The notes below the pieces were generated by a model. It saw nothing but the letters and a program-made list of their open reading frames with translations. It had not been told where the DNA came from and did not search any database. DNA of 64,000 nt, taken from Actinophytocola xinjiangensis. Its GTDB lineage: Bacteria; Actinomycetota; Actinomycetes; Mycobacteriales; Pseudonocardiaceae. Positions within the stretch are counted from its first letter, which is position 1. Every line of letters starts with the position of its first letter. The stretch spans positions 62,001-126,000 of the forward strand of contig NZ_MSIF01000009.1 in NCBI RefSeq assembly GCF_001921215.1, in the 5' to 3' direction. The position numbers and the translations under genes were made by a program. Below, in pieces: positions 33,887 to 36,621 of the stretch.

Positions 33887-34333
33887 GTGTCGAAAAGTGA
33901 GCAGGACGTAGCCGAACGCTCGCTCGCCAGCCGCCTGCGGCTGGCGACGGTCCGGCTCAACCGCAGGCTTCGCGCCCAGCGGACTGACTCCTCGGTCACG
34001 CTCACCCAACTGTCAGCGTTGTCCTGCCTGTACAAGTGCGGTCCGCTCACGCCAGGTGAGCTGGCCGCCAAGGAGGTTGTCCAGCCCCCGTCCATGACCA
34101 GGGTGATCGCCGCTCTCGAGGAAGCCGGCTACGTCAGCCGCCGACCGCACCCCAGCGACGGCCGGCAGGCCATCGTCGAGATCACCGTGGAAGGGAGTGC
34201 GCTCATCCTGGCCGACATCTCCGCCCGTGAGGCCTGGCTGGACAAGCGACTGGCCGAACTGAGCCCCACGGAGCTGGACCTGCTGTCCGAGGCCGCGGAG
34301 ATCATCGACCGGTTGGCGAGCCAACAGGATTAG
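33887..34333 (+). CDS. MarR-family transcriptional regulator
   Basis: Winged-helix repressor of 148 aa, counterpart of M. tuberculosis Rv0880. The wHTH core runs from about 35 to 100 (VTLTQLSALSCLYKCGPLTPGELAAKEVVQPPSMTRVIAALEEAGYVSR), followed by the wing RRPHPSDGRQAIVEI. GTG start at 33887. TATGCT (33875-33880) lies only 7 nt before it, so a leaderless or very short-leader transcript is likely. The stop overlaps the MFS start by one base (TAGTG). The pair suggests a drug-responsive efflux unit in which the regulator controls the exporter. Confidence 0.92.
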   Translation: MSKSEQDVAERSLASRLRLATVRLNRRLRAQRTDSSVTLTQLSALSCLYKCGPLTPGELAAKEVVQPPSMTRVIAALEEAGYVSRRPHPSDGRQAIVEITVEGSALILADISAREAWLDKRLAELSPTELDLLSEAAEIIDRLASQQD

Positions 34334-35715
34334 TGACAGACACCAGAAAGACGAGTGACCCAACAGGCAGTTCTCCCAGGACGACCGGTTCGCCTCGAGC
34401 CGCGCTCGTCGACCCGTCGAAGACCGGACGGAACCATCGGGGCATGTTCGGATCCCTGCGCGTACGCAACTACCGGTTGTTCGCGTCCGGCCAGGTGATC
34501 TCCAACGTCGGTACCTGGATGCAGCGCATCGCCCAGGACTGGCTGGTTCTCGAACTCTCCGGCTACGACCCGGTGGCCCTCGGTGTGGCCGCCGCGCTCC
34601 AGTTCCTGCCGACGCTGCTGTTCACCCTGTGGGCCGGGGTGCTGGCCGACCGCCACGACAAGCGGATGATGCTGATCCTCGTCCAGTCCGGGATGGCGGC
34701 GTGTGCGCTGGCCCTGGGGCTGCTGGACGTGACCGGCCTGGTCGTGCTGTGGCACGTGTACCTGCTGTGCTTCGTGTTCGGCATGTTCACGGCGGTGGAT
34801 CCACCCGTTCGGCAGGCGTTCGTCGGCGAGATGGTCGGCAAGGACAACATCACCAACGCCGTCGCGCTGAACTCGTCGATGTTCAACCTGGCCAGGGTCG
34901 TCGGGCCGGCCATCGCCGGTGTGATGATCATCTGGACCGGGACCGGCTGGGTGTTCCTGGTCAACGCGGTCACGACGCTGGCGGTGATCACCAACCTGGC
35001 CCGGATGAACCCCGCCGAGCTGGAACGCCAGCCCAAGCCGGCCAGCCGCCGTGGGCAGCTGCGGGAGGCGCTGCGCTACGTCCGCACCCGGCCCGACATC
35101 CTGACCGTGCTGGTCATGGTGTTCTTCGTCAGCACGTTCGCGTTCACGTTCTTCACCACGCTGGCGATCGCCGCCGCGAACGTCTTCCACCGGGAGGCCG
35201 ACGGGTACGGGCTGCTGTCGACCCTGCTGGCCGTGGGGTCGCTGACCGGGTCGCTGCTGGCCGTGCGGCGCAGCACCCGCCGGGCGCCGGGGATGCGGTT
35301 GCTGATCGGCTCGGCGTTCGTGTTCGGGCTGCTGGAGGCGCTGACCGGGCTGATGCCCAGCTACCTGCTGTTCGGGCTGGCGCTCATTCCCACCGGGATC
35401 GCCATGATCACGTTCATGAACACGGCGAACAGTGTTGTTCAGCTGGCCACGACTCCGGAGATGCGGGGCCGGGTGATGGCGCTCTACATGCTGGTGTTCA
35501 TCGGCGGGAATCCGGTGGGGGCGCCGATGACGGGGTGGCTGGCCGCCGAGTTCGGCGGGCGGTCGCCGTTCGTCATCGGTGGGGTGATCGCGGCGTTGGC
35601 GGCGGTGGCGTGTGGCGTGTACCTCGGGCGGCGGGGCGGGTTGATCACTCGGTTGCGCCGGTCTCGCGTGGTCGCGGGGAGCGAGGTGTCCCGTGAGGAA
35701 CCCGCTCAGGTCTGA
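34333..35715 (+). CDS. MFS exporter (EntS-like) under MarR control
   Basis: Twelve-helix major facilitator of 460 aa of the MFS_3/EntS type. A basic 40-residue N-terminus precedes the first helix; the motif FGSLRVRNYRLFASGQVISNVGTWMQRIAQDWLVLELSG and the loop VLADRHDKRMMLI are typical of this group, as is MRGRVMALYMLVFIGGNPVGAPMTGW in the C-terminal half. The GTG start overlaps marR by one base. An iron box lies 17 bp downstream of its stop; it cannot control this gene's own start. EntS relatives export siderophores or drugs; substrate unknown. Confidence 0.9.
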   Translation: MTDTRKTSDPTGSSPRTTGSPRAALVDPSKTGRNHRGMFGSLRVRNYRLFASGQVISNVGTWMQRIAQDWLVLELSGYDPVALGVAAALQFLPTLLFTLWAGVLADRHDKRMMLILVQSGMAACALALGLLDVTGLVVLWHVYLLCFVFGMFTAVDPPVRQAFVGEMVGKDNITNAVALNSSMFNLARVVGPAIAGVMIIWTGTGWVFLVNAVTTLAVITNLARMNPAELERQPKPASRRGQLREALRYVRTRPDILTVLVMVFFVSTFAFTFFTTLAIAAANVFHREADGYGLLSTLLAVGSLTGSLLAVRRSTRRAPGMRLLIGSAFVFGLLEALTGLMPSYLLFGLALIPTGIAMITFMNTANSVVQLATTPEMRGRVMALYMLVFIGGNPVGAPMTGWLAAEFGGRSPFVIGGVIAALAAVACGVYLGRRGGLITRLRRSRVVAGSEVSREEPAQV

Positions 35716-35732
35716 GCCCCTGGACGAACAGG

Positions 35733-35751
35733 GCAAGTTAGGCTAACCTAA
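35733..35751. promoter_or_regulatory. IdeR/DtxR-type iron box
   Basis: The 19-mer agrees at 16 of 19 positions with the iron-box consensus TTAGGTTAGGCTAACCTAA; the 14 bases TTAGGCTAACCTAA (35738-35751) are exact. It lies between the convergent MFS and HAD genes. TGGACG (35721-35726) and TAACCT (35744-35749) with a 17-bp spacer form a plus-strand promoter whose -10 is inside the box, so holo-regulator would block it. Confidence 0.75.
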
Positions 35752-35755
35752 GCGA

Positions 35756-35837
35756 AGTCGCTTCGTGGTGGGAGTGACAGTCAGTTCGGGAACACGCGAG
35801 ACCCCGGTCCTGGTGGACCGGGGTCTCGCACTTTCTC
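35756..35837 (+). ncRNA. Candidate iron-responsive small RNA
   Basis: Starting about 7 nt after the -10 element inside the iron box, a transcript would run roughly 80 nt with no plausible ORF and end at a perfect intrinsic terminator. A small stem (CGAAG-TCG-CTTCG, 35753-35765) precedes a G-rich unstructured middle section. It would be made when iron is low. M. tuberculosis has an IdeR-regulated sRNA of similar build (MrsI), but synteny is not shared and homology is not claimed. Existence is inference from sequence. Confidence 0.45.
35796..35837 (+). terminator. Strong intrinsic terminator
   Basis: A perfect 15-bp stem, GCGAGACCCCGGTCC (35796-35810) with GGACCGGGGTCTCGC (35815-35829), loop TGGT, followed by ACTTTCTC. 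The T-rich side is on the plus strand, so it ends transcripts from the MFS gene or from the iron-box promoter. It touches the 3' end of the convergent HAD gene. Confidence 0.85.
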
Positions 35838-36621
35838 AGCTGTCCCCGAACGGTGAGTCGGTGTGGCCGACCAGGTCGGCCACGGACTCCACGATGCGAC
35901 TCGGACGGTAGGGGAACTTCTCCGCCGTGGAGGCCGAGGAGATGCCGGTCAGCACCAGGATCGTCCGCAGGCCGGCCTCCAGGCCCGCGCGGACGTCGGT
36001 GTCCATGCGGTCGCCGATCATCAGGGTGGACTCCGAGTGCGCCCCCAGCGCCCGCAGGGCGGAGCGCATCATCAGGGGGTTCGGCTTGCCAACGAAGTAC
36101 GGCGCGTGGCCGGTGGCCCGCTCGATGAGCGCCGCCACCGAGCCCGTGGCCGGCAGGGAGCCCTCCCTCGACGGGCCGGTGGAGTCCGGGTTGGTGGCGA
36201 TGAACCTGGCGCCCTGCTCGATCAGGCGGATGGCCGTCGTGATCGCCGTGAAGCTGTAGGTCCTGGTCTCCCCGAGGACGACGTAGTCCGGGTCGCGGTC
36301 GGTCAGGACGTAGCCGATCTCGTGCAGGGCCGTGGTCAGGCCCGACTCGCCGATGACGTACGCCGAGCCCTCCGGGCGCTGGGAGTCCAGGAACGTCGCC
36401 GTGGCCAGGGCCGAGGTCCAGATCGACCCCTCGGGGACCTCCAGGCCGCTGCGGCGCAGCCTGGCCCGCAGGTCGCGCGGGGTGTAGATCGAGTTGTTCG
36501 TCAGTACCAGGAACTTCGTTTCCTTCGCGCGCAGCTCCTCCAGCAGCTTGTCCGCGCCGGGCACGAGGTGCTCCTCGTGCACCAGGACACCGTCCATGTC
36601 CATGAGATAAGTCCAGGCCAT
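35836..36621 (-). CDS. HAD-IIA (NagD-type) phosphatase
   Basis: Haloacid dehalogenase superfamily phosphatase, 261 aa. Motif I is DMDGVLV with nucleophile D8 and general acid D10, motif II TNNS, motif III GKPNPLM lysine, and motif IV GDRMDTD. The C2B cap between motifs II and III places it with NagD/p-nitrophenyl phosphatases acting on nucleotides or sugar phosphates. ATG start. It is divergent from moaD with 22 bp between starts, so the promoters are compact. Confidence 0.93.
   Translation of the reverse strand: MAWTYLMDMDGVLVHEEHLVPGADKLLEELRAKETKFLVLTNNSIYTPRDLRARLRRSGLEVPEGSIWTSALATATFLDSQRPEGSAYVIGESGLTTALHEIGYVLTDRDPDYVVLGETRTYSFTAITTAIRLIEQGARFIATNPDSTGPSREGSLPATGSVAALIERATGHAPYFVGKPNPLMMRSALRALGAHSESTLMIGDRMDTDVRAGLEAGLRTILVLTGISSASTAEKFPYRPSRIVESVADLVGHTDSPFGDS

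Follow-up and report, generated by a model that had tools for sequence, protein, structure and literature searches.

Iron-repressed small RNAs (sRNAs) that act on the mRNAs of iron proteins, aconitase among them, include IsrR of Staphylococcus, RyhB, PrrF, and FsrA, as set out in the available text of PMC9410917. MrsI (ncRv11846), a mycobacterial sRNA, is described in the accessible parts of two further papers as an RNA of about 100 nt that uses a short seed of 6-8 nt (PMC8628891, PMC11188477); it has an IdeR box at its promoter, a predicted intrinsic terminator, and an iron-sparing role, and in these respects resembles the sRNA predicted here. For S. erythraea, the available text of an IdeR study counts 37 likely IdeR sites; the study set aside boxes distant from annotated start positions, and its main text contains 0 occurrences of "small RNA" or "sRNA" (PMC8464063); the accessible portion of an IdeR review mentions neither term (PMC10317159). 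About 300 transcribed intergenic regions are given for S. erythraea in the available part of PMC4008361. Literature searches for a Pseudonocardiaceae iron sRNA, an iron-responsive actinobacterial small RNA, or the 16-nt core string of the RNA described below found no report.

Here we describe a conserved gene in a 64-kb stretch of DNA (hereafter the window), with a conserved iron box, a conserved RNA structure, and complementarity to the leaders of two iron-protein mRNAs. We read this locus, with a probability of roughly 0.84, as the gene for a trans-acting iron-sparing sRNA of about 80 nt that is controlled by DtxR/IdeR and pairs through its linker with the acnA and qcrC leaders.

Results

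The locus lies in an intergenic gap (35716-35835 of the window) enclosed by two genes facing each other, an MFS transporter gene on the + strand (34333-35715) and a HAD-IIA hydrolase gene on the - strand (35836-36621). Along the + strand, 35721-35837 holds a promoter with an iron box, about 45 nt, a terminator, and the tail ACTTTCTC, in that order. The -35 element TGGACG (35721..35726, +) is followed after a 17-nt spacer by the -10 element TAACCT (35744..35749, +), itself within the DtxR/IdeR iron box GCAAGTTAGGCTAACCTAA (35733..35751, +), a 16/19 match to TTAGGTTAGGCTAACCTAA. From these elements we infer transcription of an RNA of about 80 nt (35756..35837, +), a segment conserved by blastn and covariance model, with its 5' end placed about 7 nt past the -10. 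An earlier note on this DNA had listed the convergent genes, the 16/19 box, the -35 and -10 elements with their spacing, and a perfect 15-bp intrinsic terminator, and each of these was borne out. Its claim that the interval holds no ORF needs qualification: a mechanical 48-codon GTG ORF (35765-35911) overlaps the predicted sRNA, and the claim stands in so far as this ORF does not look coding, because all codon positions are conserved and copies differ in length by single bases. A generic scanner, which applies the sigma-70 consensus for promoters and at least five T in eight for terminators, listed neither the promoter nor the terminator of the sRNA. Regarding the surroundings, the MFS transporter distantly resembles EntS, an exporter of enterobactin (117.5 bits against a cut-off of 324), and a MarR-type regulator gene lies immediately upstream of it.

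The iron box is the sole site with ≤3 mismatches within the 64-kb window, and 0/100 dinucleotide shuffles has one. To assess the box in relatives, we relied on 123 named copies (distinct copies within at least 119 named stretches) that were found by the core alone, with the box unused. The best 19-mer just 5' of the core had 2-7 of 19 iron-box mismatches in 123/123 named copies listed, and ≤4 in 113/123 among the matches listed. When pooled, 164 copies had 1-7 mismatches, with ≤4 in 150, compared with a best of 8 mismatches across 160 equally sized control scans placed elsewhere upstream. The distance from the end of the box to CTTCG is 8-10 nt in 157/164 copies. Across 163 copies, the -10 positions are 93%-99% conserved, and the first T of the -35 element keeps a constant distance from the box in 95%. 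The genome containing the window encodes a DtxR, identified by a match to the actinobacterial equivalog (325.8 bits versus a cut-off of 290), whose closest PDB entry is 7b1v, a DtxR-family iron repressor. Proteins of the DtxR/IdeR type repress at high iron, and DtxR would be expected to do so here.

Conservation follows the family closely. A blastn search with 35716-35840 gave matches in 33/35 relatives of the same family and in 0/24 genomes from other families of the order, and covariance model R1 (box plus core) detected the gene in 53/54 family genomes of a 298-genome order sample. Outside the family, R1 gave weak matches in 4/244 genomes (E 0.004-0.009), which we dismissed as chance: two are iron boxes with a chance extension, and two are core-like without box or linker. 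When 38 family genomes were searched with greater sensitivity, 35 strong full-length matches and one diverged copy (in genome G007) were recovered, with nothing convincing in G022 or G290; the blastn, R1 order, and 38-genome samples overlap. The core scan of named genomes returned at least 119 stretches, of which, among those listed, 114 carry Pseudonocardiaceae genus or family names. Genera among the matches listed are Pseudonocardia, Saccharopolyspora, Amycolatopsis, Actinokineospora, Lentzea, Prauserella, Saccharothrix, Kibdelosporangium, Umezawaea, Kutzneria, Allokutzneria, Actinoalloteichus, Actinophytocola, and others; the remaining five listed are three Actinopolyspora, one Pseudonocardiales MAG, and Nocardia sp. 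NRRL S-836 (taxonomy: Nocardiaceae). The earlier note had tied its proposal to the box and terminator being kept together in relatives; both are conserved, together with the RNA core, across the family, which supports its suggestion that an iron-responsive riboregulator analogous to MrsI is plausible. In Rfam 15, there were 0 matches to the window at the gathering threshold, and sub-threshold matches look like chance.

Some genomes carry several copies. Pseudonocardia loci L095, L096, L134, L107 and L118, L177 and L196 come from genomes with 2-3 copies each, some in tandem, and L034, L035, L072, and L073 (genus g5, probably Pseudonocardia) also belong to multi-copy genomes. In genome G272, two of the three copies have degenerate iron boxes next to an unaltered core; iron may thus no longer control some copies.

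An alignment of 36 copies (A1) shows the iron box, about 10 variable nt, a near-invariant core, (C)CGCTTCGTGGTGGGAGCGGCAGTCAGTTCGGGAAC, and then the terminator, in which the letters vary and the pairing is kept. The RNA has a 5' hairpin (35757..35778, +; loop GUGGUG at 35765-35770) whose 6 pairs are formed in 36/36 aligned copies, five of them invariant and the sixth G-C, G-U, or A-U. The hairpin 14-mer CTTCGTGGTGGGAG, with its GUGGUG loop, is exact in 61/61 distinct copies found by blastn or R1, a count for which R1 itself was trained on copies bearing this loop and which excludes two fuzzy matches at stray places in L021 and L063, loci that also carry a true copy. Loop identity in the 165-copy set is uninformative, because those copies were gathered by the exact 14-mer. 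Next comes the near-invariant linker AGUCAGUUCGGGAACAC (35779..35795, +), the proposed seed for acnA and qcrC mRNAs. The consensus fold leaves this linker unpaired; when the window's own RNA is folded, linker GGGAA (35788-35792) can pair with the tail. The intrinsic terminator (35796..35829, +) has 15 pairs with no mismatch and a loop of 4 (-34.9 kcal/mol), and is followed by its tail (35830..35837, +).

The structure is supported by covariation, all of it in the terminator. Changes on both sides of a pair occupied 109 cells versus a shuffled mean of 37.1, and paired cells made up 91.1% versus 77.3% when shuffled, each computed over the whole structure and each equaled by 0/500 shuffles. The covariation score was 0.388, compared with 0.149 for shuffled alignments (0/500) and at best 0.111 for slid versions. 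Covarying structure in relatives was a check proposed in the earlier note, and the terminator pairs provide it in the 36-copy alignment.

Aconitase was examined as a target because it is shared by iron-sparing sRNAs, and an exact scan of 12 genomes with the 11-mer CCCGAACTGAC pointed to qcrC. Linker CAGUCAGUUCGGGAACA has complements of 9-12 nt in the leaders of acnA (17/28 genomes) and qcrC (13/28), roughly 20-40 nt 5' of the start codon. Runs of at least 9 nt occurred in 2/612 control leaders of other genes, where a simple script set the start positions for the control genes and for some targets. The acnA complement, for example TCCCGAACTGAC or GTTCCCGAACT, mostly begins 28-42 nt before the GTG start. 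Within the genome containing the window, qcrC has a perfect 11-nt site from -29 to -19 of the ATG, directly 5' of a Shine-Dalgarno-like AGGGG, and acnA has a 10-nt site with one G-U from -39 to -30. Over the 28 genomes, the mean longest Watson-Crick run was 8.96 for acnA (shuffled linkers 4.71) and 8.54 for qcrC (shuffled linkers 4.80), with 0/500 shuffles doing as well in either case, and duplex energies were -18.6 and -18.5 versus -11.6 and -11.5 for shuffled linkers; leaders of related genomes are not independent in these comparisons. The 16 genomes outside the 11-mer scan gave means of 9.19 (acnA) and 8.62 (qcrC), again equaled by 0/500 shuffled linkers each. Runs were shorter than 9 nt, down to 5, in 11/28 acnA and 15/28 qcrC leaders. 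The qcrC leader is also conserved beside the site; therefore, its match could in part have a different origin.

Two of the 30 genomes examined, G007 and G022, were omitted from the 28-genome sets. The diverged G007 copy (L452, G007:C48:267651-267704; a weak match, E 0.01) has the box, an intact CTTCGTGGTGGGAG hairpin, and a terminator, and its linker differs. Its acnA and qcrC leaders are without linker sites (runs of 5 and 6), which is what pairing would predict for a changed linker, in this single case. The copy may represent a seed swap or loss in nature; compared with leaders of the same genome, its own linker showed no visible fit, being equaled by 197, 252, and 43 of 300 shuffles. In G022, in which no RNA was detected, the acnA and qcrC leaders still carry partial sites (7 and 8 nt).

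Other candidate targets were dropped. As a general linker target, ctaD was matched by 21/500 shuffles over 28 genomes and by 101/500 in the held-out set; one genome has a 13-nt linker site in ctaD. Bacterioferritin gained no support, as bfr was not found in 25/30 genomes and the other 5 leaders have no site. The 11-mer had 114 sites in the 12 genomes scanned (12 being the RNA gene itself) versus 20 for the reversed control, an enrichment that we rejected as target evidence because 69/84 other fetched sites sit in an open frame, 57 of them reading Pro-Glu-Leu; this tally leaves out 24/114 sites (6 in the RNA gene itself, 3 in G006, and 15 in G024). Single-genome observations include exact 11-nt linker complements 11-27 nt before the starts of genes resembling sufC, cysH, and those for pyruvate carboxylase and a molybdo-oxidoreductase subunit (loci L303, L321, L340, and L356; one genome each, names by eye), and another near-start candidate in a thiC-like gene (also named by eye).

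Discussion

The proposed mechanism is as follows. When iron is replete, Fe-loaded DtxR/IdeR would occupy the box over the -10 and keep the gene off; as iron falls, the repressor would leave, and the RNA would be made, end at the terminator, and accumulate. Its linker would then pair with the 5' leaders of mRNAs that encode proteins rich in iron, chiefly acnA and qcrC. The acnA gene encodes aconitase, an Fe-S protein, and qcrC encodes the dihaem cytochrome c of the bc1 complex. Pairing in the cell would probably be inhibitory, lowering translation or stability of the targets and thereby sparing iron. At qcrC the duplex would abut the ribosome-binding site, and at acnA it would usually lie 10-20 nt farther upstream than in qcrC; the duplex could hinder ribosome loading or recruit an RNase.

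The hairpin is kept in G007 despite the changed linker and thus seems to serve a separate function. We tentatively suggest a two-headed RNA, in which the linker would be the aconitase/cytochrome bc1 seed and the hairpin CUUC-GUGGUG-GGAG a chaperone docking site or a second seed, a division of labor that is possible though doubtful. With respect to a second seed, loop complements in ctaD leaders are longer than those of 300/300 shuffled loops, and their duplex energy is unremarkable, with 75/300 shuffles doing as well. For the other leaders, the number of 300 shuffled loops doing as well was 37-41 (acnA) and 146-167 (qcrC) by energy, and 10-20 (acnA) and 50-134 (qcrC) by run length, against 0 for ctaD.

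The exactness of the hairpin 14-mer and its retention in G007 would also suit an iron-controlled sRNA that works chiefly through a protein (an RNA chaperone or RNA polymerase) docked on the hairpin, or through other mRNAs, with pairing to acnA and qcrC secondary. We consider this unlikely, since it leaves the 9-12-nt linker complements in two unrelated iron-protein leaders unexplained. It is far less probable that the locus serves a downstream gene as its 5' leader or attenuator. Among 150 copies with two callable neighbors (14/164 copies were omitted, their locus being shorter than 3 kb or without a callable neighbor), the next gene is on the same strand, in favor of this reading, in 19, but is convergent in 131, a pattern that includes the window, and in 36/36 folded copies the core is followed by a terminator hairpin that is strong (-26 to -47 kcal/mol). 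An encoded small peptide has just as little to commend it: a GTG frame can be traced across the locus, yet the core is near-invariant at all codon positions, spacer and linker lengths differ by one base, and the terminator varies freely. The convergent setting is the one point in favor of a chance or decoy iron box beside an unrelated terminator, the least credible of these explanations, and conservation of the box and core across the family contradicts it. We therefore favor the gene for a trans-acting iron-sparing sRNA with a linker seed.

The likeness to MrsI drawn in the earlier note holds for build and proposed role, and does not extend to sequence, in which R1 finds no relation. We searched R1 against 20 mycobacterial BlaI-family loci, from which four MrsI-like units had been chosen by visual inspection and by their location next to blaI; these four (L206, L213, L216, and L217) are without R1 matches at E ≤10. 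Among the other loci, better R1 matches sit on iron boxes, the best having E 0.007 (L219). The four units, each with an iron-box-like site, about 100 nt, and a terminator, lie upstream of blaI in some mycobacterial genomes. The L219 stretch (1937-2050, in the Mycobacterium-like genome G253) has an iron box, then about 80 nt poor in ORFs, and a hairpin resembling a terminator, all close to a gene for a BlaI-type regulator, and is possibly a separate iron-controlled sRNA. MrsI further differs in its locus (blaI-Rv1847) and in its reported targets, bfrA, fprA, and hypF.

We count the window's sRNA as a putative member of the iron-sparing class and as a new RNA family within Rfam 15 and the literature searched. 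Within that class, IsrR, RyhB, PrrF, and FsrA are Fur-controlled, whereas the window's sRNA has a DtxR/IdeR box; C-rich elements occur in IsrR, as single-stranded regions, and in FsrA, as a motif, according to the available text of PMC9410917, whereas the proposed seed here is a linker of mixed sequence. RipA of Corynebacterium glutamicum is DtxR-controlled and, in the material available on it, holds a similar network position; RipA is a protein transcription factor, whereas at the window locus an RNA would do the same job. The sRNA would offer a promising starting point in the search for an RNA chaperone of actinobacteria. Strains that are harmless and can be cultured carry the gene, which makes it open to direct testing. 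Pseudonocardiaceae are soil bacteria known for antibiotics. If our reading is right, a whole actinobacterial family, including Amycolatopsis, Saccharopolyspora, and Lentzea, would have its iron-sparing sRNA, and the solution of the known systems would have been reached once more, apparently independently, with aconitase again a target and cytochrome bc1 added as a conserved one.
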